Source: Streptomyces sp. Ru71
Lineage (GTDB): Bacteria; Actinomycetota; Actinomycetes; Streptomycetales; Streptomycetaceae
Length of the DNA stretch: 64,000 nt
Direction: 5' to 3'
Assembly (NCBI RefSeq): GCF_002920535.1
Contig: NZ_PQSS01000013.1
Span: forward strand, 1 to 64,000
This document shows positions 11,452 through 56,658 of the stretch, in pieces (position 1 is the stretch's first letter; each line of letters begins with the position of its first letter). The position numbers were made by a program, and so were the translations under genes. The notes beneath the pieces were generated by a model, which was not told the DNA's origin, made no database searches, and was given only the letters and a program-made list of their open reading frames with translations.

Positions 11452-11492
11452 GAGGCAAAGCCTAGCAGCCGCGTTTGCCCCTTGTAGGCTTA

Positions 11493-11507
11493 TGCCACTC
11501 AGTGGCA
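11493..11507. promoter_or_regulatory. Probable TetR operator (7-1-7 palindrome)
   Basis: TGCCACT-C-AGTGGCA is a perfect 15-bp palindrome centred in the 68-bp gap between the tetR start and the oxidoreductase start. It is a typical size and position for a TetR-dimer site. Binding here would block both promoters. Confidence 0.65.
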
Positions 11508-11519
11508 ATATCTCTCGCT

Positions 11520-28931: not shown

Positions 28932-30283
28932 GTGATCATAAGGGTTGTGTGGACACTTGAAGATCGCGCTGTGGCCGCAGGTCACAGCATAGATGCCGCC
29001 CGCTGGCGGTCGATGTTCGACCAGGCCATGGCCCGGATTGCGGGTCGGTTTAGGCGGGTGGAGCGTGCTGCGGCCCGCGCCTTCGTGCTCGGCCTACTGT
29101 CCGGCGTCGAGCGGAAGAACTGCTGGCGGCTGGCCGAACAGGCCGGCCACGCCCGCCCCGGGCCGATGCAGAGGCTGCTGCGAAGTGCCCGCTGGGACGC
29201 CGACGCGGTCCGTGACGACGTGCGCGCCTACGTTTTCGAGCACCTGCGCTCCGACGACGGCGTGCTGATCGCAGACGAGACGGGATTCCTGAAGAAGGGC
29301 ACCGCCTCGGCGGGCGTGCAGCGGCAATACACCGGCACGGCGGGCCGGATCGAGAACAGTCAGGTAGCGTGTTCCTCGCCTGCGCCTCCAGCAGGGGACG
29401 GGCGCTGATCGACCGTCGGCTCTACCTGCCCGAGCGCGCGTGGTGCCAGGACGCTGAGCGACGCACCCGGGCCGGGGTGCCCGACCAGGCGGAGTTCGCG
29501 ACCAAACCCGTTCTGGCCGGGCAGATGATCGAGGCAGCCCTGGACGCCGGGATCAGCGCCTCCTGGGTGACCGCGGATGAGGCTTACGGCCAAGACGCCA
29601 GCCTGCGTGATCTGTTGGAGTCCCGCCGGATCAGCTACGTCCTGGCCGTCGCCTGCAGCACGCGGGTGCGGATCAACCAGGGGCGAACCGCCATCCGCGC
29701 GGACGCTGTCGCTGACCGCCTGCCCGCCTCAGCCTGGCACCGGCAAAGCGCCGGAGCCGGAGCGAAGGGGCCGCGCTACTACGACTGGGCCTGGATCGAG
29801 ACCGGCACCGACGGCCATCGGCACGTGTTGATCCGCCGCAACCCCACCAGCGGCGAACTCGCCTACTACCTGTGCTCGTCCCCCGGACAAGTGCCGCTGT
29901 CCGAGCTGGTCCGGGTGGCCGGGACCAGATGGTGCATAGAGGAGTGCTTCCAAGCAGCGAAAGGCCAGGTCGGACTGGACCACTACCAGGTCCGCCACTG
30001 GACGGCCTGGCACCGGCACATCACTCTGGCCATGCTCGCCCTGGCCTTCCTGACCGCACTCGCCGCCGACGCGACGCTGACCACGACCGCACAGCCCAAC
30101 CGGCCCGCCCGCAGAACCGACCAGATCGACCTGACCGTCCCGGAGATCCGCCACCTGCTCGGCGCCCTGCTGAACCCACCAACCATGTCCCCGAACAGGC
30201 TGCTGCACTGGTCGAACTGGCGCAGACACCATCAGGCCACAGCCCGCCGCAGCCACTACCGCCGACGACTCGCGACCGGATAG
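28932..30283 (+). pseudogene. IS701-family transposase, frameshifted
   Basis: The first part (to about 29366) encodes FVLGLLSGVERKNCWRLAEQ, then DDGVLIADETGFLKKGTASA with the first DDE Asp, then TGTAGRIENSQV. The match continues in the +1 frame from about 29369: FLACASSRGRALIDRRLYLP, ASWVTADEAYGQD, and YHQV-type HWTAWHRHITLAMLALAF. Loss of one G in GTAGCGTG (native GTAGGCGTG) near 29366 explains the break. Together the parts cover a normal-length transposase of about 450 aa. The right inverted end is intact. No matching left end is found just upstream; the only partner is at 26747. Confidence 0.85.
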
Positions 30284-39801: not shown

Positions 39802-41701
39802 GTGAACCCGTATGCGCCCATTGCCGAGCACGGCCTGGTCGGCGACCTTCACACGGCCGCTCTGGTGTCCTCCTCCGTGGTGGTGCACGCCGCGGTTCGA
39901 CTCTCCGAGCGTCTTCGCCTCGCTCCTGGACAGTGAAGGCGGAGGGCACTGCCGTCTCGCTGTGGACCTCTCGGACGAAAGCGACATGACCGTTCGGCAG
40001 CTGTACCTGTCCGACACGGCCATCCTGGTCACTCGCTTCATGGCACCCGGCGGAGTCGGCGAAGTGGCTGACTTCATGGCGCCCCTCGACTCCTCGGCTC
40101 CTCAGGACGAGCACCGCCTGGTGCGGCTTGTCCGGGTCGTAAGGGGCACCCTGCCGTTCACCTTCACCTGCCGCCCGCGCTTCGACTACGGCCGCGCCCC
40201 GCACACCCTCTCGCAGACCGATGATCACGCCGCGATCTTCCGCGGCCCGGGGACGGACCTGCACCTGCGGTCCACCACCGGATTCCCGCTTCGCGGCAGC
40301 GGCAACGACATCGCCTCCCACTTCACCCTGTCGGCCGGCCAGGCGGCGGCGGTCGTGCTGACGAGCACGGTCAGCGGCGGTCCCGCTTCACCGCGTCCCA
40401 CTCTGGAAGGCATCGCCGACGACTTCGAGGCATGTCGGTCCTTCTGGCTCGAATGGCTGCGGTCGTGCACCTACCAAGGCCGCTGGCAGGACATCGTGAA
40501 CCGTTCGGCGATCACGCTCAAGCTGCTCACCTACGCCCCCACCGGTGCGCCCATCGCCGCTGCCACCATGGGGCTGCCCGAACAGATCGGCGGTGAGCGG
40601 AACTGGGACTACCGTTACACCTGGATCCGCGACGCGGCCCTTTCCGTCCGGACACTGATCGACCTGGGCTTCCATGATGAAGCGCAGGCATTCCGCCGCT
40701 GGCTGCGGGACCGTATCGAGGCCGGCGGCACCGTCTCCGGCGATCCCCTGCAAATCATGTACCGCGTGGACGGCGACCCCCACCTGACAGAGGAAATCCT
40801 CGACCACCTGGAGGGCTACCGGGGCTCGCGGCCGGTGCGCGCCGGCAACGCGGCCGCCGACCAGCTCCAGCTCGACATATACGGCGAGGCCTCGGACGCC
40901 TTGATCGTGGGAGGCGACATCGGTGCCATCCGCGGATGGAAGGCGCTCAGCGATGTGCTGGACTGGCTGGCCGACCACTGGGACCAGCCGGACGAGGGCA
41001 TATGGGAGACCCGCGGCGGCCGGCAGAACTTCACCTACAGCCGACTGATGACCTGGGTGGCGTTCGACCGCGGGATCCACGCGGCCCGCGAGTTCTCCCG
41101 TCCCGCAGACCTCATGCGCTGGACCAAGGAGCGCGACACCGTCTTCCGGCAGATCGTCGAGCGCGGCTGGCGCGAGAAGCGGAAGGCGTTCGTGCAGCAC
41201 TACGACACCGACGTCCTGGACGCCTCCCTCCTGCTCATGCCGGAGTTCGGCTTCCTCTCGCCCCGCGATCCCGACTGGCTCAGCACCCTCGATGCCATGG
41301 ACGAAGAACTGGTCAGTGACAGCCTGGTCTACCGGTACGACCCCGCGGCGTCCCCGGACGGCCTGATCGGCTCGGAAGGCACCTTCAACCTGTGCAGCTT
41401 CTTCTATGTGGAGGCACTCGCCCGCAGTGGCAGGGTCAACCAGGCCCGACACGCTTTCGACAAGATGCTCACCTACGCCAACCACGTCGGGCTCTTCGCC
41501 GAGGAGATCGGACCCTCAGGAGAGCAGCTGGGGAACTTCCCGCAGGCGTTCACCCATCTGGCCCTGGTCAACGCGGCCATGGCGATCGATGACGAACTGA
41601 GCAAGGCGACCAGGCACCGAACCGGCGATCACATCCGCCCCTCGGCCCATCGCCTCACGGCGCCCGCAGAGAGTGCTCCAGGGGACGGCGGACGTGGTTG
41701 A
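39802..41701 (+). pseudogene. GH15 glucoamylase/trehalase-like gene with N-terminal frameshift
   Basis: The main frame, open to 41701, shows GH15 features: PRFDSPSVFASLLD, ATMGLPEQIGGERNWDYRYT with WIRDAA, and GSEGTFNLCSFFYVEALARS. The normal opening (YAPIAEHGLVGDLHTAALVS) is in a different frame starting at GTG 39802. The two frames meet near 39880 in a CTCCTCCGTGGTGGTG stretch. The protein would be about 630 aa if corrected. GH15 enzymes remove glucose from alpha-glucans or trehalose. It could be a true pseudogene or an assembly error. Confidence 0.8.
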
Positions 41702-43097
41702 GACAGTCGAGCGCCGCCGGCCGACGGGCAAGAGACGTGCGCTGGCCGCCCTGGCTCTTGCCCAGTTCATTTGCAGCTTCGCCGGCTCCAACATGAACGT
41801 GATGATCAACGACATCAGTGAGGACCTCGACACGACCGTCCAGGGCGTGCAGGTGGCGATCACGGTCTTTCTGCTGGTGATGGCGGCACTCATGATCCCC
41901 GGCGGCAAGCTCACCGACCGTTACGGCCGCAAGCGCTGCTTCCTGACCGGTCTCGTCGTCTACGCGATCGGCGCCTTGCTCAGCGCGGCCTCGCCCGGCC
42001 TCGGTGTCCTGATCCTCGGTAACTCGATCCTCGAAGGCGTCGGAACCGCCCTTCTCATCCCGCCCGTCTACATCCTCACCACCCTCCTCTACCCGGACGT
42101 GACCTCTCGCGCCCGCGCCTTCGGGGTCATCATGGCGCTGGGCGGCGTCGGCGCTGCTGCCGGACCGCTGATCGGCGGACTCATCACCACAGGCATCAGT
42201 TGGCGTGCAGCCTTCGTATTCCAGGCCCTGGTCATCGCAGTGATCGTCATGCTCAGCCGGCGCATTGACGATCCGCTTCCACCGGACCCGGCACGCTCCT
42301 TCGACACCGCCGGGGCGGTCCTGTCCGCCACGGGTCTCGTTCTCGTCGTCATGGGCATTCTTGCCGCGGACAACAACATCTGGCTCACGATCGCGCTCCT
42401 GGCCCTCGGGGTACTCGTGCTCTGGTGGTTCTTCCGCGCCGTACGCGCCAAGGAGGCCTCAGGCGAAGAACCGCTTCTGTCGCTCAGCCTGTTTCGCAAT
42501 CGCACGTCCAACCTGGGGCTCGTGACCCAGAACGTCCAGTGGCTGATGCTTCTGGGTGCGTCGTTCACGGTGGCGGCCTACCTGCAAGTCGTGCGTCACT
42601 ACGACGCCATCCAGACCGGGGTCATCTTCACGGCGGCCACACTGGGACTGCTGATCACTTCCCTGTCCGCCGAGCGACTGGCCAAACGGCGTTCTCAGCG
42701 CACGCTGATCATGGCCGGCTTCGCCGTCTGCATCGTCGGCATCGTCGTTCTGGTCGTCCTGGCCGCCGGGTTCTCCACCGCCTGGGCGTTCGTCCCCGGA
42801 CTCCTGCTGATCGGACTCGGGCTGGGCATCATGCTGACGCCGTCGGTCAACCTGGTGCAGTCGAACTTTCCCGAAGAGCAGCAAGGGGAGATTTCAGGAC
42901 TCTCCCGCAGCGTGTCCAACCTCGGCTCCTCCTTCGGTACGGCCATCGCCGGCACCATCCTGGTCTCCGGGCTGACCACAGGCGCCTATGCCGCCGCGAT
43001 GATCGTCCTCGCTGTGATCGGACTCGGCGGCCTGACAGCGGCGGCCCTTCTCCCCAGGGAGCCCGGCGCCGTATCGAGGCAGAGCACGCCGCCGTGA
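41694..43097 (+). CDS. MFS multidrug transporter, 14 TM (DHA2-like)
   Basis: The 467-aa protein has about 14 membrane segments, motif A as GKLTDRYGRKRCFLTGL and motif C-like GGVGAAAGPLIGGLI, typical of the EmrB/QacA family of proton-driven exporters. GTG 41694 (overlapping the GH15 stop by eight bases and following GGGGAC) was preferred over GTG 41673. It is translationally coupled to the GH15 gene, an unusual pairing. Substrate unknown. Confidence 0.85.
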   Translation: MVETVERRRPTGKRRALAALALAQFICSFAGSNMNVMINDISEDLDTTVQGVQVAITVFLLVMAALMIPGGKLTDRYGRKRCFLTGLVVYAIGALLSAASPGLGVLILGNSILEGVGTALLIPPVYILTTLLYPDVTSRARAFGVIMALGGVGAAAGPLIGGLITTGISWRAAFVFQALVIAVIVMLSRRIDDPLPPDPARSFDTAGAVLSATGLVLVVMGILAADNNIWLTIALLALGVLVLWWFFRAVRAKEASGEEPLLSLSLFRNRTSNLGLVTQNVQWLMLLGASFTVAAYLQVVRHYDAIQTGVIFTAATLGLLITSLSAERLAKRRSQRTLIMAGFAVCIVGIVVLVVLAAGFSTAWAFVPGLLLIGLGLGIMLTPSVNLVQSNFPEEQQGEISGLSRSVSNLGSSFGTAIAGTILVSGLTTGAYAAAMIVLAVIGLGGLTAAALLPREPGAVSRQSTPP

Positions 43098-43342
43098 GCT
43101 CCCCATTGCCGTACCAGGGATGTCAGTGTCTGGCGAGTACCGCGGTTGCCCGGTTCCTCGTGGCCCGGCTGGCGCCAGCCTTCCGCCAGAGGTTCTGTCG
43201 GCCGTGGCTCTCGCCCCCTGCGCATCAAGACACCGTCTGGCGGCCTTCGCCCGTTGGGCCTGCTGGGGCGGGCGGGAGGCTGCGCGAGTTGGGTGGCGCT
43301 CATAGTCTGGTGGTGCTCGGGGCGACAGACGGAGGACACCGC

Positions 43343-45064
43343 ATGCCCCGCAGCATCTGGTCCGGCGCCATCAGCTTCGGCCTGGTCACCGTGCCGATCA
43401 ACGTGGTCAGCGCGACCGAGGACCACTCGATCCGTTTCCACCAGTACCACCCGGAGGACATGGGCCGGATCCGGACCCGCAAGTTCTGTGAGCTGGAGGA
43501 CCGGGAGGTCACGAGCGCCGAGATCGGCAAGGGTTATGAGCCGGCGCGCGGCACCAAGACCAGGCCCGAGCACATCATCCCGATCTCGGACGAGGAGCTG
43601 CGTGATCTTCCGCTGCCGACGGCCAAGGCGGTCGAGATCGTCGCGTTCATGCCGGCCGAGGAGATTGATCCGATCCAGATCGGCGAGGGCTACTACCTGC
43701 AGGCCAGCGGCCAGGTCGCGGCCAAGCCGTACAAGCTGCTGGTCCAGGCCCTGGGCCGCTCGTCCAAGGTGGCCATCGCGAAATACGCGTGGAGCGGGCG
43801 CGAGCGCCTGGGCATGCTCCGGGTCCGCGAGGACGCGCTCGTGCTCCACGCCATGCGCTGGCCGGATGAGATCCGCAACCCCGCCGAGCTGCTGCCGGCG
43901 CCCACGGACGTGTCCGAGCCCGCCGGCAGCAACGCTCATACGCCAGCCGTGCCCGTCGCCAAGGCCGCCCAGCCACCGCGCCTGGCGCTCGTGGACGGAT
44001 TACGGCTCGCCGCCGCGCTCTTCGTCGCCGCTTTCCACTTCCTCGGCACGACGAACCCGGCCATCCTGGGGGAATCGCCTAAGGAATTCTCCTATCTCGT
44101 ACATCGCGCCGCCCTTTACGGCTGGCTCGGTGTCGAAATGTTCTTCCTGATCAGCGGGTACGTCATCTGTATGAGTGCATGGGGTCGCAGTCCGGGCCAG
44201 TTCGCGGTCTCCCGTATCTGCCGACTGTTCCCCGCGTACTGGTTCGTCATCCTGCTGATCGTCGCACGTATCGCGATCATTCCCATGCAGACCGGGGACA
44301 TCTATTCCGTCATCCATCCCCGAGTCGTCCTTTCGAATCTCACCATGTTCCCCGGGCCACTCAAGGTCGGCCTGCTCGACGGTGTCGCCTGGACGTTGGA
44401 CGTCGAAGCTCGCTTCTACCTCCTCATGGCCGTCATCCTGAAGTTCGGCGCGACGTACCACCGGATGATGACCTTCTGCACTGTGTGGCTGGTGGCAGCC
44501 TTCATCACTCACTCCACGCAGAACAAACTGCTGGACCAGTTCACCCTCAGTGCCTACGCGGGCTACTTCATCGCGGGTATCGCCGTCTACCTCATGTGCC
44601 GGTTCGGGCAAAACATGATGTTGTGGTTCCTGCTCGGCATGGCCTGGGCCTATCAACTGTCTGTGCTCCAGCTACGGGTGAACTTCCACCCCGCCACGTC
44701 CCATACTCACAAGACCGTCTCCTGGACTCTGTGCGCCCTTTTGGTGACAGGATTCCTCACTGTACTGATGACGGCGTCGCTCGGGCCTTTGAGGAGGATC
44801 CGCTGGCGCTGGCTGGTCACAGCCGGAGCCCTCACATACCCCTTCTACCTCGTCCACATGAGCATCGGCATTCCTCTGGCGAAGGGTCTGACCTGGCGCG
44901 TACCGGAACTCGGTCCTTGGGGCACCCTTATCGTGACCATGGCCGCCATGCTGCTGCTGTCGTATGGCATCTACCGCTGGGTTGAGAAACCCATGAGCAA
45001 GTGGTTCCGGCGCAACCTCATGAAGGGACTGAAGCCCAAGGAGAAGCCAGAGTTCGCACTCTGA
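43343..45064 (+). CDS. Chimera: truncated Ku domain fused to membrane acyltransferase (OafA-like)
   Basis: A single 573-codon frame starts at ATG 43343 with GGAGGACACC upstream. Residues 1 to about 190 are bacterial Ku: MPRSIWSGAISFGLVTVPIN, FCELEDREV, and LHAMRWPDEIRNPAELLPAP. The usual Ku C-terminal helices are missing. After a 20-residue linker, residues about 213-573 are an acyltransferase-3 membrane protein: RLALVDGLRLAAALFVAAFH, FLISGYVICMSAWG, VAWTLDVEARFYLL, about 10 membrane segments, and a basic tail. Ku is a soluble DNA-end binder, so this fusion is unexpected. It is most simply a recombination joint that stayed in frame. Confidence 0.85.
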   Translation: MPRSIWSGAISFGLVTVPINVVSATEDHSIRFHQYHPEDMGRIRTRKFCELEDREVTSAEIGKGYEPARGTKTRPEHIIPISDEELRDLPLPTAKAVEIVAFMPAEEIDPIQIGEGYYLQASGQVAAKPYKLLVQALGRSSKVAIAKYAWSGRERLGMLRVREDALVLHAMRWPDEIRNPAELLPAPTDVSEPAGSNAHTPAVPVAKAAQPPRLALVDGLRLAAALFVAAFHFLGTTNPAILGESPKEFSYLVHRAALYGWLGVEMFFLISGYVICMSAWGRSPGQFAVSRICRLFPAYWFVILLIVARIAIIPMQTGDIYSVIHPRVVLSNLTMFPGPLKVGLLDGVAWTLDVEARFYLLMAVILKFGATYHRMMTFCTVWLVAAFITHSTQNKLLDQFTLSAYAGYFIAGIAVYLMCRFGQNMMLWFLLGMAWAYQLSVLQLRVNFHPATSHTHKTVSWTLCALLVTGFLTVLMTASLGPLRRIRWRWLVTAGALTYPFYLVHMSIGIPLAKGLTWRVPELGPWGTLIVTMAAMLLLSYGIYRWVEKPMSKWFRRNLMKGLKPKEKPEFAL

Positions 45065-45239
45065 TGCCCATGCATCCACGCTAGAGCAGCTGGTAAGACC
45101 CAGCAGTATTCGGAGCGCCCCTCGACAGGCAAAAGGACGGTCTCGTCAAAGCCACCGCCGTGCCCGGATGAGAATGACGGCGAGGTGAGTGCGCCCTGGT
45201 CAGCGATGGCGAGCTTGTCTGTTCGCATGGCCGGTTCGC

Positions 45240-45490
45240 GCCACTGCTTGAGTGGTTGATGGCAGCTCTTCGGGGCGGTGGGGCGCCCACGACCGCGGCG
45301 ACGGCCATCGTGCCGTACGTCTTTGTCGTACGAGGCGAAGTTGGCGACGTAGAAAGCGAACGCGGCGGAGGCGACCAGCCAGATCACCAGGGCCAGGAAG
45401 CTGCCCGGGGTGATCCACTTGACGCCCTTCACCTTCGCTTTCGGGCTGGCCCAGTACGGGACCGCGATCACGAGACGACCAGCACGACGA
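45240..45490 (-). pseudogene. YihY/BrkB-family membrane protein remnant
   Basis: The minus strand encodes PYWASPKAKVKGVKWITPGS and FLALVIWLVASAAFAFYVAN, then FASYDK. This is the conserved WxTPG...YVANFxSYDKTYGT block of YihY/virulence-factor BrkB proteins. One extra A (GACAAAGACG, native GACAAGACG) shifts the frame so that TYGTMAVAAVVG falls out of frame. The 5' and 3' parts of the gene are missing. The surrounding 45065-45890 holds no intact gene; a tail reading FAQRALMFGEHSTALKQAQR ends at a stop near 45758. Confidence 0.7.
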
Positions 45491-45897
45491 GCACCACCTC
45501 GCCGGAATGCCTGTCGATCTTTCCGATGCCGCCACCGTCGCCGTCGGGTGTCACGGTGGTCTCTGAGCTCAAGGCGCCGCAGCGTAAGACCGACGCCCCA
45601 GTTGGCGGGCGCGGCAAGGGCGGGGGATGTCGTGACTGCCAGCGCAGCCACGTCGGCACTCGCCTTGAACAGTGGTGAGACGGCTTGCGCCTCGCTTTGG
45701 GCCGGGACCTCGAAGCGGGAATCGCGGCCCCCGCGGCCGTAAGGGCGGCCCGGCTATTTCCCCGGAGCGTCGAGCACATCCCTGGCTCCTCGGATGAGGT
45801 CGCGCTGTGCCTGTTTGAGGGCCGTGCTGTGTTCACCGAACATGAGGGCACGCTGCGCGAAGTCCACGGCAGGAAGGCATTGCGTTCGCCTTCGCCA

Positions 45898-48372
45898 CTA
45901 TGGATTGCTGGATGGCGAAGCCGCCGGGGCCGGCATTTCTGCCCAGATGATCTTGCCGTCTGCGGTATGGCGCGTGCCCCAGCGCGCGGCGAACTGTGCC
46001 ACCAGGAAGAGACCCCGCCCTCCTTCCTCGCCGAGTTTCGCCCGGCGTGGGTGGGGTGACGTGCTGCTGCCGTCCGAGACCGCGCAGATGAGACGGTTCT
46101 GGGTCCGGATCAGGCGCAGGGACACGGGGCCGCGGGCATGCCGGATAGCGTTGGTGACCAGTTCGCTAACGATCAGTTCCGCAGAGAAGGTCAGATCCTC
46201 AAGCCGCCAATGAGCAAGGCGCTCGCTGGTCAGGGACCGGGCTCGCGCAGCGCTTTCCGGTTCGAAGGCCAGCTCCAAGGAAGCGACGTTGTCGGCCGGC
46301 AGTGGGCGCGGCCGGGCGACCAGAAAGGCGACATCGTCTGGGGGGTGATCGGGCAGCAGGATGCGCTCCATGGTGCCGGTGATCTCTTCCAGGGGGCGGT
46401 CCGGATGGGCGAGCGCGAAGGCGAGTCGTGCCAGACCGATGTCCGTATCGGACTCGGAGGCCATGATCAGACCGTCGGTGTACAGCGCCAGGACGCAGTC
46501 GTCCGGGATTGTCATCTCCACCGATTCGAAAGGGATGCCGCCCACCCCGAGCGGGGGGCCGGTCGGGATGTCGCAGAACTCCACCGGCTTGTTCCTGTGC
46601 GCGAGGGCGAGGGGCGGATGCCCGGCGCTGGCGAACGTCGCACGGCGCGTGACCGAATCGTAGACGCCGTAAAGACAGGTGGCGCCGACCACTCCCTCCA
46701 CGCCGAAGGGGTGCGCAGTCTCAGCCTCCTCGGCCAGACGCTGGACCAGGTCGTCGAGGTGGGCCAGCAGTTCCTCCGGCGGCAGATCCAGGTCGGCCAG
46801 CGTGTGCACGGCTGTGCGAAGCCGGCCCATGGTGGCTGCGGCACGCAGGCCATGACCGATGACGTCGCCGACCACCAGCCCCACCCGGCCGCAGGAGAGA
46901 GGCAGGACATCGAACCAGTCACCGCCCACGCCGGCCTCCGTGTCGGCGGGCAGATAGCGGTAGGCGGCTTCTACGGCGGCGTGGGCGGGCATTTCGTGCG
47001 GCAGCAAGCTGCGCTGCAGCATGAGACCGGAGTGGCGCTCCCTGGTGAACCGGCGTGCGTTGTCGATACAGACGGCGGCACGGGCAGCGAGTTCCTCAAC
47101 GAGTAGCAGGTCCTCAGCGGTGAAAGGCTCGCGATTACGCCACCGCAGCAAGGTTGCCACTCCCATGGTCACCCCTCGCGCACGGAGCGGAACCACCATG
47201 TGGGAGTGGATGCCCAACTCCCGCATGCGCGCGCTGCGCACGGCGTCTTCCGCCAGCCAAGGACTGGACCGTGCCAGCACGGCGTTCAGCACTGGGTTCC
47301 CGCTTGCCAGACATTGCCACTGCGGGGACCCCTCCGTGTATCCGACCTTGCCGCCAGGTGGGACGACGGCTTCGGGCAGGTCCTCTCGGACGGACCGGTG
47401 GACGGCCCGGCGCATGTCCCCTGTCTGATCAAACAAGCGGACGTCGGGCTCTCCGCCGTCCAGAACGGCACCGAGCAAGTCGACAGCGATGAAGTCGGTG
47501 ATCTCGGGCACCAGGACTTCGGCGAATTCCTCCACCGTGCGGCCGAGGTCCAGTGTGCTGCCGATGAGGACAGCGGCCTCATTCAGCAGCGCCAGTCTGT
47601 GCTGGGCCCGGTACAGATCTGTGACGTCGACCGATTCCTCACATACCCCCAGCGTCCGACCCGCTTCATCTTGCAATCGGTAGTAGGAGAGCGACCACAC
47701 GTGTTCACGGTCGGGATCCGCGAGGGTACGTCCTTTGTACCGGAGATCGACGACGGTCCGCCCGGTAACGAGCACCTCGCTCATCAGCTGCGTCACCGAG
47801 GGCGGGTGTCCAGCCGAGAGCACCTGGCTGCCGGGGTACAGCTCACCTTCACTGCGCCCCAGATACTGCGTGAACTCTCCCGGCAACTCATCTCGCGCCG
47901 CGGCGTTGGCCCATGACACCCGCAGGTCAGGTCCGTAGATGGTCAGCGCCACCGGGGACTCGGCGGCAAGGCCGTGGAGCATGGCCTGCCGAAGCTGCCA
48001 ATCCGCATGTTCCTCGGCGTCCGCCAGGAACAGGAGGAAGGCGGTGCCCGACGCCATGGCCGGAAGCTCGTACAGCGACGTCACGGCCCGGAGGAAGTGG
48101 CCGGACCGGTGACGTAGAACCGTGTGATCGGTCGGTCCGCCGTCCGGATTCGGGCGGAGCCAGTCCTCACGGGTTCCCTCGGCCTGCGCCGCCAGCGCGC
48201 CGATCGGTTGGCCGAGCATTTCTTTCGCGTGATAACCAAGCAGCTGCTCGGCCCGCGGGCTCCAGCCGGTCACCCATTTCCGGCTGTCCAGCGTGACGAC
48301 GGCTGCGCGCGTGACACTCAGTGGGTCGCCCCGATCGTCCGCTCCCGGGGCAGTTGCCGATGTGGTCACCAC
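45898..48372 (-). CDS. PAS-PAS-GAF-PP2C-HATPase regulatory phosphatase (SpoIIE/RsbU type)
   Basis: The 824-aa cytosolic protein has two PAS domains (about 20-115 and 135-255), a GAF domain (about 260-440), a SpoIIE/RsbU PP2C phosphatase (about 465-690; GVGGDWFDVLPL, LVVGDVIGHGLRA, ALYTDGLI) and a C-terminal anti-sigma-type HATPase (about 705-815; ELVTNAIRHA, GRGLFLVAQFAARWG). Such proteins combine an anti-anti-sigma phosphatase and an RsbW-like kinase, and set stress or developmental sigma-factor activity. Streptomyces carry dozens. GTG 48372 follows GAGGACGG. No sigma or anti-anti-sigma gene adjoins it. Confidence 0.9.
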   Translation of the reverse strand: MVTTSATAPGADDRGDPLSVTRAAVVTLDSRKWVTGWSPRAEQLLGYHAKEMLGQPIGALAAQAEGTREDWLRPNPDGGPTDHTVLRHRSGHFLRAVTSLYELPAMASGTAFLLFLADAEEHADWQLRQAMLHGLAAESPVALTIYGPDLRVSWANAAARDELPGEFTQYLGRSEGELYPGSQVLSAGHPPSVTQLMSEVLVTGRTVVDLRYKGRTLADPDREHVWSLSYYRLQDEAGRTLGVCEESVDVTDLYRAQHRLALLNEAAVLIGSTLDLGRTVEEFAEVLVPEITDFIAVDLLGAVLDGGEPDVRLFDQTGDMRRAVHRSVREDLPEAVVPPGGKVGYTEGSPQWQCLASGNPVLNAVLARSSPWLAEDAVRSARMRELGIHSHMVVPLRARGVTMGVATLLRWRNREPFTAEDLLLVEELAARAAVCIDNARRFTRERHSGLMLQRSLLPHEMPAHAAVEAAYRYLPADTEAGVGGDWFDVLPLSCGRVGLVVGDVIGHGLRAAATMGRLRTAVHTLADLDLPPEELLAHLDDLVQRLAEEAETAHPFGVEGVVGATCLYGVYDSVTRRATFASAGHPPLALAHRNKPVEFCDIPTGPPLGVGGIPFESVEMTIPDDCVLALYTDGLIMASESDTDIGLARLAFALAHPDRPLEEITGTMERILLPDHPPDDVAFLVARPRPLPADNVASLELAFEPESAARARSLTSERLAHWRLEDLTFSAELIVSELVTNAIRHARGPVSLRLIRTQNRLICAVSDGSSTSPHPRRAKLGEEGGRGLFLVAQFAARWGTRHTADGKIIWAEMPAPAASPSSNP

Positions 48373-49887: not shown

Positions 49888-50832
49888 TCAGTCCGCCCCG
49901 TCGGACGACCGGCCTCCCGGCGGGCTCAGCGTGCCGCCCAGTTCCTGCGCCCGGCGCAGGAACTCCTCCCGCAGTCCGCGCGCCGCCTGCGGCACGGACA
50001 CGGCCCTGCGCAGTTGCAGCATCAGCAGCACCCGCGTCCCGGCGCCCGCCAGCGGCCGGTAGGTGATGGCACCCAGCCGCTCCAGCGGATCCCCGACGAC
50101 GCTGAAGTCCGGCAGCACCGTGGCCCCGAGCCCCTCCGCCACCATCAGCTTGCCCATCTCCGCCCCGTCGGTGGAGTACGAGAAGGACGGGGTACGGCCG
50201 TTCAGCAGCCGGTGCACGTACCGGTGCATGACGTAACCGGAGCGCATCGCGATCAGGGGCTGGCTCAGCAGGTCGTCCACGGTCACCTCGGGGCGGGAGG
50301 CGAGCGGGCTGTCGGGCCGTACGCACACCACCGGCCGGCCGTGCAGGAGTTGCGTCGACTCCAGTGCGGCCGGCATGTCGTCCCCTTCCAGGTGATTGAC
50401 CAGGCCGAGGTCGAAGCCGCCCTCGGTCAGGGCCCGGTGGATCTCCGTCTGCTGCGCGGCGACCACCTCGACCTGGGTGAGGGGGTGTGCGGCGCGGAAG
50501 GCGCGCACCACCGGAATGAGCAGCGGCACGGTCGCCGCGTTCACCGTTGCCACCCGCACCATGCGGCTGACGCGGTGCTGCTCGCCCGCCGCGGCCCGCA
50601 GCCGGTCCACCGCCTCCAGGACGCCGACGATGTGCGGCAGCAGTTCGCGGCCCTCCGCGCTCATCGTCGCCCCGGAGCGTTTGCGTTCCAGGAGGACGAC
50701 GCCGAGTTCGCGTTCCAGGTTCCTGACGGTCTCGCTCAACGCCGGCTGGGACAGGCGCAGTTCCTCCGCGGCCCGGCGCAGCGAGCCCAGCCGGGTCACC
50801 GCGGCGATGTATTCCAGCTGTTCCGTTCGCAC
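49888..50832 (-). CDS. LysR-family regulator of the sulfone operon
   Basis: The 314-aa protein has an N-terminal HTH (QLEYIAAVTRLGSLRRAAEE, then LSQPALSETVRNLERELGV) and a periplasmic-binding-like effector domain. GTG 50832 (VRTEQLEYI) was chosen although the frame is open to 50883. It is divergent from the leader peptide and organosulfur genes. By analogy with CysB/Cbl/SfnR-type control it probably activates them when sulfate or cysteine is scarce, but the ligand is inferred. Confidence 0.85.
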   Translation of the reverse strand: MRTEQLEYIAAVTRLGSLRRAAEELRLSQPALSETVRNLERELGVVLLERKRSGATMSAEGRELLPHIVGVLEAVDRLRAAAGEQHRVSRMVRVATVNAATVPLLIPVVRAFRAAHPLTQVEVVAAQQTEIHRALTEGGFDLGLVNHLEGDDMPAALESTQLLHGRPVVCVRPDSPLASRPEVTVDDLLSQPLIAMRSGYVMHRYVHRLLNGRTPSFSYSTDGAEMGKLMVAEGLGATVLPDFSVVGDPLERLGAITYRPLAGAGTRVLLMLQLRRAVSVPQAARGLREEFLRRAQELGGTLSPPGGRSSDGAD

Positions 50833-50969
50833 GGCAGCAGAATTCCCCTCACGGACGGAGCTGTTCAAGGGTTTCCCTGTCACACCTTCGTGAAATTCAG
50901 TGGGGTGCGCCGTAAAACCGGTCGGGTTTCCCTTGACGGCCTCGACCGGCGACTGCCACGATCGGCGGC

Positions 50970-51053
50970 ATGACGATGCGACTGGACCTCACGCGGCGAC
51001 GCCATGTCGACCTCGCGCGCGTTTCCAGCGCCTCCTGTCGCTCAGCGGCCTGA
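50970..51053 (+). CDS. Cysteine-containing leader peptide (27 aa)
   Basis: MTMRLDLTRRRHVDLARVSS then ASCRSAA. The RRHVDLxRVSSxxC pattern is the recurrent putative leader peptide found upstream of sulfur-assimilation operons in actinobacteria. It has a single Cys (TGT) near the end, so ribosome progress at that codon could report cysteine supply and control the downstream genes by attenuation. It is too short for most gene finders. The first structural gene starts about 190 bp downstream. Confidence 0.8.
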   Translation: MTMRLDLTRRRHVDLARVSSASCRSAA

Positions 51054-51240
51054 CCCCCCAGAGATCTGCCGCTCCCTATCACGCCACGGCTTTCGTCGCA
51101 CAGTTCGCTGCCGCGTTCCCGTCAGCGCCGTTGCAACAAAGCGGTTCTCGTATGCACCTGCTCATGTGAGTGATGTGGCGTTTCCTTTCGCCGGGATATG
51201 ACGTCCCGGATCACACAGAATTCAGCAACAGGAGTTCCGC

Positions 51241-52359
51241 ATGCCCGCGCCCGTGAAATTCGCCTATTGGGTCCCCAATGTCAGCGGGGGACTGGTCACC
51301 AGCACGATCGAACAGCGCACGGACTGGGGGTACGACTACAACCGCGAACTCGCCGTCCTCGCCGAGAACAACGGCTTCGAGTACGCGCTCAGCCAGGTTC
51401 GCTACATGGCCAGCTACGGTGCCGAGTACCAGCACGAGTCGACCAGCTTCAGCCTCGCCCTGCTCCTCGCCACCGAGCGTCTGAAGGTGATCGCCGCCGT
51501 TCATCCCGGCCTGTGGCACCCGGGCGTCCTCGCCAAACTGGGCGCCACCGCCGACCACCTGTCCGGCGGCCGTTTCGCCGTCAACGTCGTCAGCGGCTGG
51601 TTCAAGGACGAGTTCACCGCGCTCGGCGAGCCCTGGCTGGAGCACGACGAACGCTACCGCCGCTCCGAGGAGTTCATTCGCGCCCTGCGCCAGATCTGGA
51701 CCGAGGACCACACCGAACTCGCCGGGGACTTCTACCGGTTGCGGGACTTCTCCCTCAAGCCGAAGCCCCTCAGCTCTCCCGGGCGACCGCACCCGGAGAT
51801 CTTCCAGGGCGGCAACTCCACCGCCGCCCGCAGGATGGCCGGCCGGGTCTCCGACTGGTACTTCTCCAACGGCAAGGACTTCGACGGAGTCGTCGAGCAG
51901 ATCCAGGACGTACGCGCCGCGGCGGACCGGGCGGGCCGTACGGCGCCCCGGTTCGGCCTCAACGGCTTCCTCATCGCCCGCGACACCGAGGCCGAGGCCC
52001 GCGACACCCTCCGCGAGATCGTCGCCAAGGCCGACTCCGAGGCCGTCGAGGGCTTCGGCGCCGCCGTACGGCAGGCGGGCCGGTCCACCGCCGACGGCAA
52101 GGGCATGTGGCAGGACTCCACCTTCGAGGACCTGGTCCAGTACAACGACGGTTTCCGCACCGGCCTGATCGGCACCCCCGAACAGATCGCGGAACGCATC
52201 GTCGCCTACCGCCGCCTCGGCGTCGACCTCCTGCTCCTCGGCTTCCTGCACTACCACGAGGAGGTCGCCTACTTCGGCAAGCGCGTGCTGCCCCTCGTCC
52301 GCGAACTGGAGGCGCAACTCCCCGAGGACGAGCCCCGCCCTGCGCCCGCGCATGCCTGA
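51241..52359 (+). CDS. sfnG: Dimethylsulfone monooxygenase SfnG-like
   Basis: The 372-aa luciferase-like flavin monooxygenase starts VKFAYWVPNVSGGLVTSTIE and has SLALLLATERLKVIAAVHPG and LSGGRFAVNVVSGWFKDEF, the signature of the SfnG group within the SsuD superfamily. SfnG uses FMNH2 and O2 to turn dimethyl sulfone into methanesulfinate. GGAG lies before the ATG. It is the first enzyme gene after the leader peptide, and the FMN reductase two genes on would supply FMNH2. Confidence 0.88.
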   Translation: MPAPVKFAYWVPNVSGGLVTSTIEQRTDWGYDYNRELAVLAENNGFEYALSQVRYMASYGAEYQHESTSFSLALLLATERLKVIAAVHPGLWHPGVLAKLGATADHLSGGRFAVNVVSGWFKDEFTALGEPWLEHDERYRRSEEFIRALRQIWTEDHTELAGDFYRLRDFSLKPKPLSSPGRPHPEIFQGGNSTAARRMAGRVSDWYFSNGKDFDGVVEQIQDVRAAADRAGRTAPRFGLNGFLIARDTEAEARDTLREIVAKADSEAVEGFGAAVRQAGRSTADGKGMWQDSTFEDLVQYNDGFRTGLIGTPEQIAERIVAYRRLGVDLLLLGFLHYHEEVAYFGKRVLPLVRELEAQLPEDEPRPAPAHA

Positions 52360-52456
52360 TCTCCTGCCCGGCTCCCGCCTCACCCCCTCCCCTTACCGAC
52401 GCCACACCCGCACCGCCGCGCACCCCACCGCACGCACCACGAAAGAGGTCACCCCC

Positions 52457-53674
52457 ATGAGCACCCCCACGGCCACCGCCTGGCAGAACCGCCCCGCCCC
52501 GACAACCGCCCAGGACTGGATCGCGCGCGCCGCCGAGGTCGCCGCCGTTCTCGCCACCGACGCCGCCGCCCGGGACCGCGCTGGAGCCACCCCGTACGCC
52601 GAGGTGCAGCTGCTGAAGGACGCGGGCCTGGTCACTCTGCTCGGGCCCGTGGAGCACGGCGGCGCCGGCCAGGACTGGCCCACCGCCTACCGCGTCGTCC
52701 GCGAGGTCGCCAAGGCCGACGGGTCCATCGGCCAGCTCCTCGGCTACCACTACCTGTGGAACTGGGCCGCCCGCCTGGTCGGCACCCGCGAGCAGTGGGA
52801 GCACGTCGAGGCCGAGGCCGCGCGCAACCGCTGGTTCTTCGGCGGGGCCGTCAACCCGCGCGACAACGACGTCGTCGTCACGGAAGACGGCGACGACCTC
52901 GTCTTCACCGGCCGCAAGACCTTCTCCACCGGCAGCAAGGTCTCCGACGTCACCGTCCTCGAAGGCGTCCTGGAGGGCACCGACCAGCACGTCTTCGCGA
53001 TCGTGCCCTCCGACAGCGAGGGCCTGACCTTCCACGACGACTGGGACAACATCGGCCAGCGGCTGACCGAGAGCGGAAGCGTCACCATCGACGGCGTGCG
53101 CACCCCGTGGTCCTCGGCGGCCGGCTACGTCGACAAGCAGTTCCAGGCGCGCACCTACAACACCCTCAACGTGCCCACCATCCAGCTAGTCTTCGTCAAC
53201 TTCTACCTCGGCATCGCGGGCGGCGCGCTGGAGACGGCGGCCACCTACACCCGGAGCAAGACCCGGCCCTGGCTGCACGGCGGCCACGAGCGGGCGGTCG
53301 ACGAGCCGTACGTCATCGACACCTACGGCGATCTCACCGCGAAGCTCTGGGCGGCCGAGGCGCTCGCCGACGCCGTCGCCGCCGAGGGCCAGAAGCTGCA
53401 CGACGACCCCGACGCCGTCACCGAGCGGGCGCGCGGCGAGTTCGAGGTGCGGGTCGCCGCGGTCAAGGCGCGCGCCACCGACGTCGCCCTGGAAGTCACC
53501 AGCCGCATCTTCGAGGTGACGGGCGCCCGCTCCACGACCACCGCCGAGGGACTGGACCGCTTCTGGCGCAACGTCCGCACCCACACCCTGCACGACCCCG
53601 TCGCCTACAAGCGCCGCGAGGTCGGCCGCTGGGTCCTGGAGGGCGAACTGCCCGAACCGACCTGGTACTCCTGA
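52457..53674 (+). CDS. Acyl-CoA-dehydrogenase-like monooxygenase (DszC/SfnB type)
   Basis: The 405-aa protein has the acyl-CoA dehydrogenase fold with LVTLLGPVEHGGAGQDWPTA, DGSIGQLLGYHYLWNWA, FTGRKTFSTGSKVSD and FWRNVRTHTLHDPVAYKRRE. It lacks the catalytic Glu context of true dehydrogenases. The TH-LHDP ending is shared with DszC-type flavin monooxygenases that oxygenate sulfur. It is probably FMNH2-dependent and works on an organosulfur substrate. ATG 52457 follows GAAAGAGG. A hairpin separates it from the reductase gene. Confidence 0.85.
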   Translation: MSTPTATAWQNRPAPTTAQDWIARAAEVAAVLATDAAARDRAGATPYAEVQLLKDAGLVTLLGPVEHGGAGQDWPTAYRVVREVAKADGSIGQLLGYHYLWNWAARLVGTREQWEHVEAEAARNRWFFGGAVNPRDNDVVVTEDGDDLVFTGRKTFSTGSKVSDVTVLEGVLEGTDQHVFAIVPSDSEGLTFHDDWDNIGQRLTESGSVTIDGVRTPWSSAAGYVDKQFQARTYNTLNVPTIQLVFVNFYLGIAGGALETAATYTRSKTRPWLHGGHERAVDEPYVIDTYGDLTAKLWAAEALADAVAAEGQKLHDDPDAVTERARGEFEVRVAAVKARATDVALEVTSRIFEVTGARSTTTAEGLDRFWRNVRTHTLHDPVAYKRREVGRWVLEGELPEPTWYS

Positions 53675-53683
53675 CCCTCCCCC

Positions 53684-53708
53684 GGGGCGCCCGCCTCACG
53701 GGCGCCCC
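53684..53708 (+). terminator. Intra-operon hairpin
   Basis: GGGGCGCCCG (53684-53693) and CGGGCGCCCC (53699-53708) form a perfect 10-bp stem with a 5-nt loop. It lies between the DszC-like gene and the FMN reductase gene. It may tune downstream expression or stabilise the upstream mRNA. Confidence 0.55.
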
Positions 53709-53729
53709 GCCCGCCCCGAAAGAGGACCC

Positions 53730-54284
53730 ATGGCCACCGTCCTGTCCGTCTCCGGCAGCCCCTCCGTCTCCTCCCGCACCCAGCGCCTGCTGCGCCACCT
53801 CGACGACCGGCTCCTCGCGCAGGGCCATGACGTGATCGCGCTGGACGTGCGCACTGTTCCCGCCGAGGCCCTGCTGGGTGCCGACTTTCGGCATCCCGCC
53901 ATCGTCGAGGCCGCCGAGCTGTTCGCCCGCGCGGACGGCGTCGTCGTCGCCACGCCCGTCTACAAGGCGTCGTACTCCGGCGTCCTCAAGGCACTGCTCG
54001 ACCTGCTCCCGCAGTACGCCCTCGCCGGCAAGACCGTGCTGCCGCTGGCCACCGGCGGATCGACCGCCCACGTCCTGGCCATCGACTACGCGCTGCGTCC
54101 GGTCCTCAGCTCGATGGGTGCGGCGCACATCGTGCAGGGCTGGTTCACCCTCGACAAGGACATCACCGTCCGCGACGACGGCTCCCTCGCCGTCGCCGCC
54201 CAAGCCGACGAGGGCCTGGCCCGGGTGGTCGACCAGTTCTCGGCGGCTCTGGGCAGCAGCCTGGTCCTCGCAGCGGCGGGCTGA
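53730..54284 (+). CDS. ssuE: NAD(P)H-dependent FMN reductase SsuE-like
   Basis: The 184-aa flavodoxin-like protein has VLSVSGSPSVSSRTQRLLRH (FMN phosphate loop) and GVVVATPVYKASYSGVLKAL, the hallmarks of the SsuE/MsuE family, which reduces FMN for two-component sulfonate and sulfone monooxygenases. GAAAGAGGA precedes the ATG. Its position among three or four FMNH2-using oxygenase genes makes the role secure. Confidence 0.9.
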   Translation: MATVLSVSGSPSVSSRTQRLLRHLDDRLLAQGHDVIALDVRTVPAEALLGADFRHPAIVEAAELFARADGVVVATPVYKASYSGVLKALLDLLPQYALAGKTVLPLATGGSTAHVLAIDYALRPVLSSMGAAHIVQGWFTLDKDITVRDDGSLAVAAQADEGLARVVDQFSAALGSSLVLAAAG

Positions 54285-54289
54285 GCCCT

Positions 54290-55474
54290 ATGACCGCGCA
54301 TGTGATCGCCGACGACGCCGAAGCCCTCGCCGTCGCCGCCGCGCTGGCGAAGGAGTTCCGCGCCGGTGCCTCCGCCCGCGACGCCGAACGCCGCCTGCCG
54401 CACGCCGAGGTGGACAAGCTCTCCGCGTCGGGCCTGCTCGCCGTCACCGTCCCCGCCGCACACGGCGGCGCCGACGTCGGCGCGCTCACCCTCGCCGAGA
54501 TCTTCCGGCTGCTGGCGTCGGCCGACGGCAGCCTCGCCCAGATCCCGCAGAGCCACTTCGTCTACGTCAACGTCGTCCGCCGCCAGGGCACCGAGGAACA
54601 GCGGAAGTTCTTCTTCGCCGAGGTCCTCGCCGGGCGCCGCTTCGGCAACGCCCAGTCGGAGGCGGGCACCCGGCACGTCCAGGACATCCGCACCCGCCTG
54701 ACACCACGCCCTGACGGCTCCTACGTCCTCACCGGCGTCAAGCACTACGCCACCGGTGCGCTGTTCGCCGACTGGATCCCGGTCCTCGCCCGCGCCGAGG
54801 ACGACGAGCTGCACGTGGCGTACGTCCCGCGGGACGCGCCCGGCCTCACCGTGATCGACGACTGGGACGGCATGGGTCAGCGCACGACGGCCAGCGGCAC
54901 CGTGCGGCTCGACGCCGTGCCCGTACCGGCCGACCGTGTCCTGCCCCATCACCTCACCTTCCGCGGACCCCAGCTGCACGGCGCGGTGGCCCAGTTGCTG
55001 CACGCCGCGATCGACACGGGGATCGCCGGGGGTGCCCTGGCCGAAGCCGCCGCGTTCGTCCGCACCAAGAGCCGGCCCTGGTTCGAAAGCGGCACCCAAA
55101 CGGCGGCCGAGGACCCGCTGCTCATCCAGCGGTTCGGTGAACTCGCCCTGCGGGTGCGGGCCTCCGAGGCGCTGCTGCGCGAAGCCGCCCGCACGGTGGA
55201 CGCGGCACTCACCGGCCTGACCGACGACTCCGCGGCCGAGGCGTCGATCGCCGTGGCCGCCGCGAAGGCCCACGCGGCCGACACCGCGGTGGAAGTGGCC
55301 GGCGCCCTGTTCGAGGTGGCCGGCACCCGGGCCGCCCTCGACTCGCTCAACCTCCACCGTCACTGGCGCGACGCCCGCACCCACACCCTGCACGACCCGG
55401 CGCGCTGGAAGATCCAGCACATCGGCCGGTACGTGCTGAACGGCACCCGACCGCCACGCCACGGCCTGCTCTAG
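54290..55474 (+). CDS. sfnB: SfnB-family sulfur-acquisition oxidoreductase
   Basis: The 394-aa acyl-CoA-dehydrogenase-like flavoprotein has LLAVTVPAAHGGADVGALTL, DGSLAQIPQSHFVYVNVVRR, FGNAQSEAGTRHV, LTGVKHYATGALFADW and HWRDARTHTLHDPARWKIQH. The pattern fits the SfnB family linked to dimethyl sulfide/sulfone use in pseudomonads. It starts five bases after the reductase stop. Its exact reaction is not established; it may oxidise a methylated sulfur intermediate with FMNH2. Confidence 0.85.
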   Translation: MTAHVIADDAEALAVAAALAKEFRAGASARDAERRLPHAEVDKLSASGLLAVTVPAAHGGADVGALTLAEIFRLLASADGSLAQIPQSHFVYVNVVRRQGTEEQRKFFFAEVLAGRRFGNAQSEAGTRHVQDIRTRLTPRPDGSYVLTGVKHYATGALFADWIPVLARAEDDELHVAYVPRDAPGLTVIDDWDGMGQRTTASGTVRLDAVPVPADRVLPHHLTFRGPQLHGAVAQLLHAAIDTGIAGGALAEAAAFVRTKSRPWFESGTQTAAEDPLLIQRFGELALRVRASEALLREAARTVDAALTGLTDDSAAEASIAVAAAKAHAADTAVEVAGALFEVAGTRAALDSLNLHRHWRDARTHTLHDPARWKIQHIGRYVLNGTRPPRHGLL

Positions 55475-55515
55475 CGAGCCGGCTGCCCGCGGCGGACCTG
55501 CAGATCGGAGTTTTC

Positions 55516-56658
55516 GTGTCCCTCACCTTCCACTGGTTCCTCCCCACCAACGGCGACAGCCGTCATGTCGTCGGCGGCGGCCACGGCACCCCGGCATCCC
55601 CGTCTGGACGGGACCGGCCGCCGACGGTGGCGTACCTGAGCCAGATCGCCCGCGCGGCCGAGGATCTGGGGTTCGTCGGTGCGCTCACCCCGACGGGCGC
55701 CTGGTGCGAGGACGCGTGGCTGACCACGGCGATGGTGTCCCAGCACAGCGAGCGCCTGAAATTCCTCGTCGCCTTTCGCCCCGGCTTCGTCTCCCCGACG
55801 CTCGCCGCGCAGATGGCGTCCACCTTCCAGCGGCAGAGCGGCGGACGGCTCCTGCTGAACGTCGTCACGGGCGGCGAGAGCCACGAGCAGCGCGCCTACG
55901 GCGACTTCCTCGACAAGGACGCCCGCTACCGCCGTACCGGCGAGTTCCTGCACATCGTGCGGGCCTTGTGGGAGGGCGCGACGGTCGATCTGGCGGGCGA
56001 GCATCTGAGAGTGGAGGAGGCCCGGCTCGCACGGGTGCCCGACCCGGTGCCGCAGGTGTACTTCGGAGGCTCCTCCCCGGTGGCGGGCGAGGTCGCCGCC
56101 CGGTACGCCGACGTGTACCTCACGTGGGGCGAGCCGCCCGCCCAGGTCGCCGAGAAGATCACCTGGATCCGGGAACTGGCCGCCGAGGAGGGCCGTACCG
56201 TCCGTTTCGGCATCCGCCTGCACGTCATCACCCGCGACACCTCCGCACAGGCGTGGGCCGAGGCGGACCGTCTGCTGGCGGGCTTCGACCCGCAGACGGT
56301 GCGATCCGTGCAGGCCGGGCTCGCCCGCAGCGAGTCGGAGGGGCAGCGGCGCATGCTCGCCCTGCACCAAGGGAGCCGGGACGGTCTGGAGATCCACCCC
56401 AATCTCTGGGCCGGCATCGGCCTGGTCCGCGGCGGCGCGGGCACCGCGCTGGTGGGCAGCCACGAGGAGGTCGCCGAACGGATCCGGGAGTACCACGCCC
56501 TCGGCATCGAGGAGTTCGTGCTCTCCGGTTATCCGCACCTGGAGGAGGCGTACTGGTTCGGGGAGGGTGTGCTGCCGCGGCTCGCGGCCCAGGGCCTGTG
56601 GCACCACCCGCACACCCCACGGCCGCAGCAGGCGGCACAGGTGCCCTTCGCGAGCTGA
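55516..56658 (+). CDS. ssuD: FMNH2-dependent alkanesulfonate monooxygenase SsuD-like
   Basis: The 380-aa luciferase-like monooxygenase has FHWFLPTNGDSRHVVGGGHG, ERLKFLVAFRPGFVSPTLAA, GGRLLLNVVTGGESHEQRAY and EEFVLSGYPHLEEAYWFGEG, all typical of SsuD. It desulfonates alkanesulfonates to aldehyde and sulfite. With SfnG it completes a route from dimethyl sulfone through methanesulfonate to sulfite. GTG 55516 has GGAG five bases upstream. It is the last gene of the operon, followed by a small hairpin. No SsuABC transporter is present. Confidence 0.9.
   Translation: MSLTFHWFLPTNGDSRHVVGGGHGTPASPSGRDRPPTVAYLSQIARAAEDLGFVGALTPTGAWCEDAWLTTAMVSQHSERLKFLVAFRPGFVSPTLAAQMASTFQRQSGGRLLLNVVTGGESHEQRAYGDFLDKDARYRRTGEFLHIVRALWEGATVDLAGEHLRVEEARLARVPDPVPQVYFGGSSPVAGEVAARYADVYLTWGEPPAQVAEKITWIRELAAEEGRTVRFGIRLHVITRDTSAQAWAEADRLLAGFDPQTVRSVQAGLARSESEGQRRMLALHQGSRDGLEIHPNLWAGIGLVRGGAGTALVGSHEEVAERIREYHALGIEEFVLSGYPHLEEAYWFGEGVLPRLAAQGLWHHPHTPRPQQAAQVPFAS

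Follow-up and report, generated by a model that had tools for sequence, protein, structure and literature searches.

We found that the window, by which we mean the whole 64-kb stretch of Streptomyces DNA analyzed here, carries at 43343–45064 (+) a single open reading frame, running from ATG to TGA and encoding 573 aa without internal stop or frameshift, in which the front part of a bacterial Ku protein continues into a membrane domain of the acyltransferase-3 (AT3) type. Judged from sequence comparisons, we consider it likely that this is a chimeric gene, seen in one genome only, in which illegitimate recombination would have broken a Ku gene and put an AT3 under the Ku start, with the AT3 being the working part of the product. 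The 573-aa frame held two Pfam domains, each scoring above its cut-off, namely Ku (PF02735) at residues 11–182 (profile positions 1–176 of 190, E 1.3e-39), covering the β-barrel core of Ku, and Acyl_transf_3 (PF01757) at residues 217–545 (profile positions 4–326 of 326, E 4.2e-19, 69.2 bits against a cut-off of 31). The NCBIfam model for bacterial Ku, TIGR02772, was matched over its positions 1–179 of 259 (E 5.6e-59). Because each half has its own strong family score together with a low pairwise dN/dS, it is unlikely that the frame is open merely by chance. A preceding sequence-only reading of this DNA had described an uninterrupted Ku–AT3 frame with a ribosome site, a Ku lacking its C-terminal helices fused to a full AT3 domain and a joint at 43905–43985. 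All three points were borne out, with GGAGG found before the ATG, with the profile coverages given above, and with the Ku DNA match of the nine best relatives ending at 43917–43922 (blastn; weaker relatives stop earlier) and AT3 DNA homology starting from 43973. Annotation by best hit could label such a gene either Ku or acyltransferase, thereby overlooking the other half.

The start at 43343 was assigned by homology to Ku and by the preceding GGAGG; the frame is also open 5′ of this ATG, and the ORF listing gives a GTG at 42425. Positions 43293–43342 (+) constitute a Ku leader with the ribosome-binding site GACGGAGGACACCGC, common to other Ku genes as seen from the blastn homology of the nine best Ku relatives. 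Since the DNA match of these relatives begins already at 43274–43303, the leader and the ribosome site can both be ascribed to the Ku gene. From the joint to 44200 there were four in-frame start codons, none having an evident ribosome site when inspected by eye, and the AT3, having no evident start of its own, would thus rely on that of Ku in what amounts to a capture of expression signals. A promoter scan of 43000–45400 gave no match of the sigma-70 type.

The Ku part, encoded by codons 1–192 (43343–43918, +), comprises the core domain as defined by PF02735 and TIGR02772, cut before the helical pillar and the C-terminus. The nearest Ku proteins were 79–81% identical to it in amino acids, these values being derived from different programs. 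For comparison we used 49 distinct Ku relatives of 290–354 aa, taken from fetched loci on chromosomal and viral contigs, all of which continue past codon 192 with a helical-looking tail, and as judged from most of them ∼100–110 residues are missing in the fusion beyond that codon. This set, with 27 members from viral contigs and one being the Ku encoded on contig C4 of the same genome, was kept from 65 matches after removal of two with <62% identity, five representing the window itself, two representing a Ku fragment on contig C120, six duplicates and one that was cut by the locus end after codon 192. The group as such is common on Streptomyces plasmids, with 128 plasmid records matched in a DNA search, 126 of them from Streptomyces, and all of 30 candidate stretches in IMG/VR (L095–L124) encode a Ku of the same group at 60–77% identity. 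One of these IMG/VR contigs (L104) and the S. leeuwenhoekii plasmid NZ_LN831788.1 are of equal length (86,370), which hints at phage-plasmids.

The AT3 domain with its stop codon occupies 43973–45064 (+), and by family tests this C-terminal part of the fusion is an AT3 protein. Its nearest stand-alone relative was a gene in genome G407, being 81% identical in protein as well as in DNA, which has a 431-aa product having a long Pro/Ala leader and adjoins a gene that we, from its protein sequence, take to be gatB. Stand-alone AT3 genes were also found in genome G334 (69%) and in S. acidiscabies and S. niveiscabiei (∼70%), with that of S. acidiscabies likewise lying near gatB. A Kyte–Doolittle analysis at one threshold resolved seven separate hydrophobic segments after residue 213 of the fusion, against the ∼10 transmembrane helices expected for AT3, and an AlphaFold2 model of modest confidence, based upon 28 sequences (mean pLDDT 61.7), displayed many long helices from residue 214, with most of the Ku half at low confidence. 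AT3 proteins acylate carbohydrate outside the membrane, and the AT3 part of the fusion looks functional. Models of AT3 proteins are described as having 10 helices and a cytoplasmic cavity, with the N-terminus making up part of its CoA entrance (PMC9833829). Because the N-terminus of AT3 helps to form this entrance, the Ku part of the fusion would be predicted to lie in the cytoplasm, near the mouth of the cavity.

We also asked how widely the fusion is distributed. A match spanning both domains was found in none of 391 other genomes of the genus when a junction fragment was used as query (at most nine candidates scored per genome), nor in any of 294 genus genomes, mostly or all within those 391, when the whole protein was used (at most four candidates scored per genome). 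The same was true for 60 relatives, including 24 outside the genus, while a query coverage of 80% was reached in 0 of 728 plasmid records and 0 of 87 phage records having any match. A scan of genome contigs with the AT3 half yielded 12 loci, in which tblastn of the complete fusion detected no Ku. The genome searches scored few candidates per genome and listed matches up to a cap, but a genuine fusion would head such a list. A conserved Ku–AT3 architecture, found in more than one species, was thereby ruled out for the genomes and the plasmid and phage records searched. In the search with the junction fragment, a few AT3 matches started within the Ku portion of the query (for instance from residue 13 in G051, 11 in G237 and 19 in G097). 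These three were rejected as fusions, with the stretch upstream of the AT3 in G051 being something other than Ku when read, and with the open frames in G237 and G097, of 420 and 458 aa, being too short to hold both domains. Searching the two halves for the same joint elsewhere, as had been proposed in the sequence-only reading, hence placed the joint in one genome only and the relatives of both parents in separate genes. Within the literature and terms searched, we found no report of a Ku–acyltransferase fusion.

Within the genome itself, four Ku matches were seen, i.e. two genes with uninterrupted frames on contigs C1 and C4, the window, and the fragment on C120, and there were three ATP-dependent ligase domains besides the Ku genes. 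The lost 3′ end of the Ku gene, which the same reading had suggested might lie elsewhere in the genome, was not found in this assembly, where a tail query gave the C4 Ku at 46% as its best match, the C1 Ku at 28%, and two weak matches with E >0.5. The copy on C120 (L004 1413–2310; G000:C120 ∼10905–11802) had 81% DNA identity to window positions 43300–43690, its frame being interrupted by a frameshift and by an internal TAG; after about residue 118 it passed into other sequence having a weak EF-hand match below cut-off. It could be dismissed as the missing remainder, being another 5′ Ku fragment and not a tail. The gatB locus of this genome was collinear with that of G407, at 80–88% DNA identity in the longer blocks, except for the AT3-bearing ∼3.9 kb of G407 (L080 5084–8950), in place of which ∼250 bp were found (L084 7508–7757); beside the AT3, those ∼3.9 kb contain a gene presumably of phospholipase-C-like type, as named from its sequence. 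There were nine AT3 matches in all in the genome, the next-best among those listed being 42% identical to the fused AT3, and among these matches the fused copy thus appears to be the only close orthologue. The AT3 would either have moved from the gatB site or been gained from outside. As AT3 orthologues are sparse, its absence at the gatB site of this genome may be ancestral and the AT3 may be of external origin.

Between the two parts of the fusion lies a linker of 54 bp (43919–43972, +) that matched neither parent convincingly and may be either AT3 leader or joint filler. When compared in register with the AT3 leader of G407 it agreed at 5 of 18 residues (shuffle p 0.05). In the DNA, 22 of 54 positions agreed with this leader (p 0.19) and 19 of 54 with the Ku continuation of L017. 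An origin as native AT3 leader, as considered from the in-register alignment, is in view of these shuffle values no more than possible. The joint is furthermore spanned by an imperfect palindrome at 43890–43931 (+), with 20-nt arms that are 85% complementary and include exact 11-bp arms at 43890–43900 and 43921–43931; an inverted repeat of this kind would fit with a filler templated by snap-back. Exact 11-bp arms with a spacer of ≤20 were, however, counted 25 times in the whole window, with five counts at three places, including the joint, within 26,550 bp of coding sequence (17 chosen frames). With that many like repeats, and with the test having been devised after the repeat was noticed, we regard the palindrome as a lead and not as a mark of end joining.

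New proteins are known to arise from chimeric genes that illegitimate recombination has formed, and we propose the following course of events for the gene studied here. A Ku gene of the plasmid or phage type would have been broken after codon 192, with loss of its 3′ third, whereupon the broken end would have been joined in frame, we infer by end joining, to the 5′ region of an AT3 gene that no longer has its own start. The AT3 would now be made from the leader, ribosome site and start codon of Ku, with the Ku fragment carried as a cytoplasmic N-terminal passenger followed by a short linker. Acylation of carbohydrate outside the membrane would be the selected function of the AT3, and the Ku part would no longer work in repair. 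Illegitimate recombination fits with the joint because unrelated sequences were joined without an extended repeat. That the process at work was end joining itself is plausible, and a transposition or a homologous route may alternatively have led to the fusion. For S. ambofaciens, NHEJ is described as contributing to mutagenic repair after breaks had been induced, DNA becoming integrated where a break healed, and five such inserts, measuring from 30 bp up to 18.8 kb, are reported (PMC5869714). The joint of the fusion resembles those scars in that unrelated sequence was joined at a break, with fill-in, microhomology and insertions being reported for the scars, which are, however, experimental, whereas the joint studied here lies in an open chimeric gene with a route that is deduced (PMC5869714). 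Between the two interpretations that had been offered in the sequence-only reading, i.e. a recombination joint or a working Ku tethered to the membrane, it was thus the former that gained from the analysis, considering the occurrence in one genome, the separate relatives of both parents, the failure to find the Ku remainder in this assembly, the gatB site without AT3 and the broken Ku on C120.

Selection on the two halves of the fused gene was assessed from their substitution patterns. For the AT3 part, pairwise dN/dS was 0.134 versus G407 and 0.21–0.26 versus other relatives. The Ku part had one deviation (I97V) at the columns that are invariant among the 49 Ku relatives, and its mean dN/dS of 0.293 ranked 10 of 47, with a median of 0.265; neither relaxed selection on the Ku half nor decay was seen. 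In lineage counts for the AT3 with G334 as outgroup, the window branch carried 67 synonymous and 30 non-synonymous changes, and the G407 branch 22.7 and 5.3; with S. acidiscabies as outgroup, the corresponding counts were 51.7 and 23.3 versus 16.7 and 9.3. The window branch is longer, with no clear relaxation. Both halves thus appear to have been constrained over most of their history, whether before or after the fusion. The lack of decay in the Ku half weighs against the proposed course of events, in that a passenger of some age would be expected to show more drift, leaving either a recent join or constraint on the Ku part. GC3 was 0.94 in the Ku half and 0.81 in the AT3 half, with 0.79–0.86 in neighboring genes of the window, while the AT3 relatives, at 0.92–0.94 (G407 AT3 0.92), were above the value of the fused AT3.

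These patterns bear upon the possibility that the gene is debris, i.e. an unexpressed or non-functional remnant that would still be open owing to high-GC frames and a recent event. The surroundings could be seen as agreeing with such a notion, in having a truncated BrkB remnant just downstream and a partial transposase 13 kb upstream, as could the second and clearly dead Ku fragment on C120 and the finding of the joint in one genome only. We nonetheless regard it as unlikely, considering that the 573 codons are without stop or frameshift, that start and ribosome site have been kept, and that the AT3 has a low dN/dS versus G407 with the Ku half being nearly free from deviations at invariant positions.

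Still less probable, in our assessment, is a chimera of assembly or sequencing, whereby two separate genes would have been wrongly joined. The assembly is indeed a draft of 192 contigs and no other genome searched has the joint, but the joint sits inside a contig of 143,974 bp, and nowhere else in the genome is there a long and almost identical copy of the 171 bp surrounding it, the best other matches being 26–27 bp at 96% and ∼60 bp at 77%; those two features together disfavor a misjoin. The Ku tail was, in addition, found on no other contig, although an assembly gap could hide it.

To evaluate what the Ku fragment has retained, we aligned it to the mycobacterial Ku (mKu) structure 8v53, with the numbering of mKu residues fixed by Y21 as given in PMC12784962. 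The mKu dimer is described as being held by a bridge (residues 23–91), pillar helix 4 (194–210) and a sling (167–227), with the tail at 228–273 serving LigD (PMC12784962). Query residue 181 corresponded to about mKu 177 and the end of the fragment, at codon 192, to about mKu 188. The fragment hence includes the bridge and is devoid of pillar helix 4, the second part of the sling and the tail, leaving incomplete the dimer interface expected of a Ku functional in NHEJ. The minimal C-terminus with the LigD-binding tail is likewise absent, in agreement with the TIGR02772 match reaching position 179 of 259 and with the continuation of all 49 relatives. Among eight named mycobacterial DNA-contact residues, Q33 and R43 are identical in the fragment, R46, R62 and R88 are replaced by Lys, and the remaining three differ, with Y21 being Val, Y44 being Thr and R58 being Ala. 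By these comparisons the N-terminal part is a Ku by descent, yet an incomplete one, and it is probably a passenger because it has lost the pillar of the dimer, half of the sling and the tail for LigD. M. tuberculosis Ku without its C-terminus was reported to bind DNA more tightly with contact to LigD retained (PMC9638933), and by analogy some residual DNA binding by the fragment is possible, with the M. tuberculosis core construct perhaps being longer than the fragment.

The other interpretation of the sequence-only reading, a working Ku bringing a DNA-end-binding domain to the membrane, gained no positive support from these analyses, with parts for both dimerization and LigD missing, even though the Ku half shows no decay. 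Its largely kept core domain, the partly N-terminal and cytoplasmic CoA entrance of AT3, by which Ku would face the cytoplasm (PMC9833829), and the raised DNA affinity of M. tuberculosis Ku upon removal of the C-terminus (PMC9638933) all speak for such a protein. We find it very unlikely when considering that the fragment ends at about mKu 188, that two of eight DNA-contact residues are identical, with three of eight having Lys for Arg and three of eight being different, that none of the other genomes searched showed the fusion, and that its own genome has two other Ku genes with uninterrupted frames. The chance seems smaller yet that the fragment acts as a dominant-negative or decoy Ku, capping ends or pairing with intact Ku and so lowering end joining, for although the M. 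tuberculosis core lacking the C-terminus still binds DNA (PMC9638933) and the bridge region lies inside the fragment, the dimer interface is partly missing and the fusion is not conserved among the genomes searched. We give as little credence to a new membrane-anchored end-binder, which end joining would have created by breaking a mobile-type Ku gene and sealing it with a snap-back templated filler to an AT3 gene, and which would be kept for envelope acylation together with the holding or capping of DNA ends at the membrane.

Returning to the chimeric gene as the favored reading, we compared it with known systems. With the bacterial Ku proteins of the Streptomyces plasmid and viral group (PF02735, TIGR02772) it shares codons 1–192, leader and ribosome site, but the Ku sequence beyond that codon is missing from it, and an integral membrane enzyme follows instead. 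With the stand-alone G407 AT3 beside the putative gatB it shares the full domain at 81% amino-acid identity, but it lacks an own start and the full leader, is preceded by 192 residues of Ku and lies at a different genomic site. Proteins such as the AT3-SGNH enzymes (e.g. OafB) and AT3-alanine racemase similarly have AT3 and another domain in one chain (PMC9833829). Those are recurrent architectures, however, whereas the partner in the fusion is N-terminal, of DNA-binding type and seen once. KuB of S. coelicolor and S. ambofaciens is, like the fusion, a Streptomyces Ku with an extra domain, but the KuB extension is a C-terminal SAP (HEH) nucleic-acid-binding motif, while the Ku of the fusion is instead truncated (PMC5124664, PMC11936186). 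In a survey of 122 chosen bacteria, prokaryotic Ku was described as consisting of the core only, save for the extension in S. coelicolor (PMC11936186). With a broken gene that itself belongs to end joining, and with identifiable relatives of either parent, a site without the AT3 and a second disrupted Ku copy, the fusion offers a useful case for studying how accessory regions in genomes of this kind are remodeled by rearrangement. If it were true that the Ku half still binds DNA, the product would be a natural membrane-anchored end-binding protein.

With regards to the neighborhood, the fusion is preceded by a separate gene for an MFS transporter (41673–43097, +; PF07690). Downstream of it, the truncated BrkB/YihY remnant lies at 45322–45471 (−) in an ORF at 44971–45651, with residues 61–110 matching positions 175–223 of 259 in PF03631, and thereafter follows a separate gene for a PAS/GAF/SpoIIE phosphatase (45898–48372, −; PF07228 and others). 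The partial DDE transposase is found at 29369–30283, its DDE_5 match starting from profile position 117. Further along the window, 49888–56658 encodes a LysR regulator followed by two luciferase-like monooxygenases and two acyl-CoA-dehydrogenase-like proteins, which we take to be possibly a cluster for oxidation of organosulfur compounds or xenobiotics.
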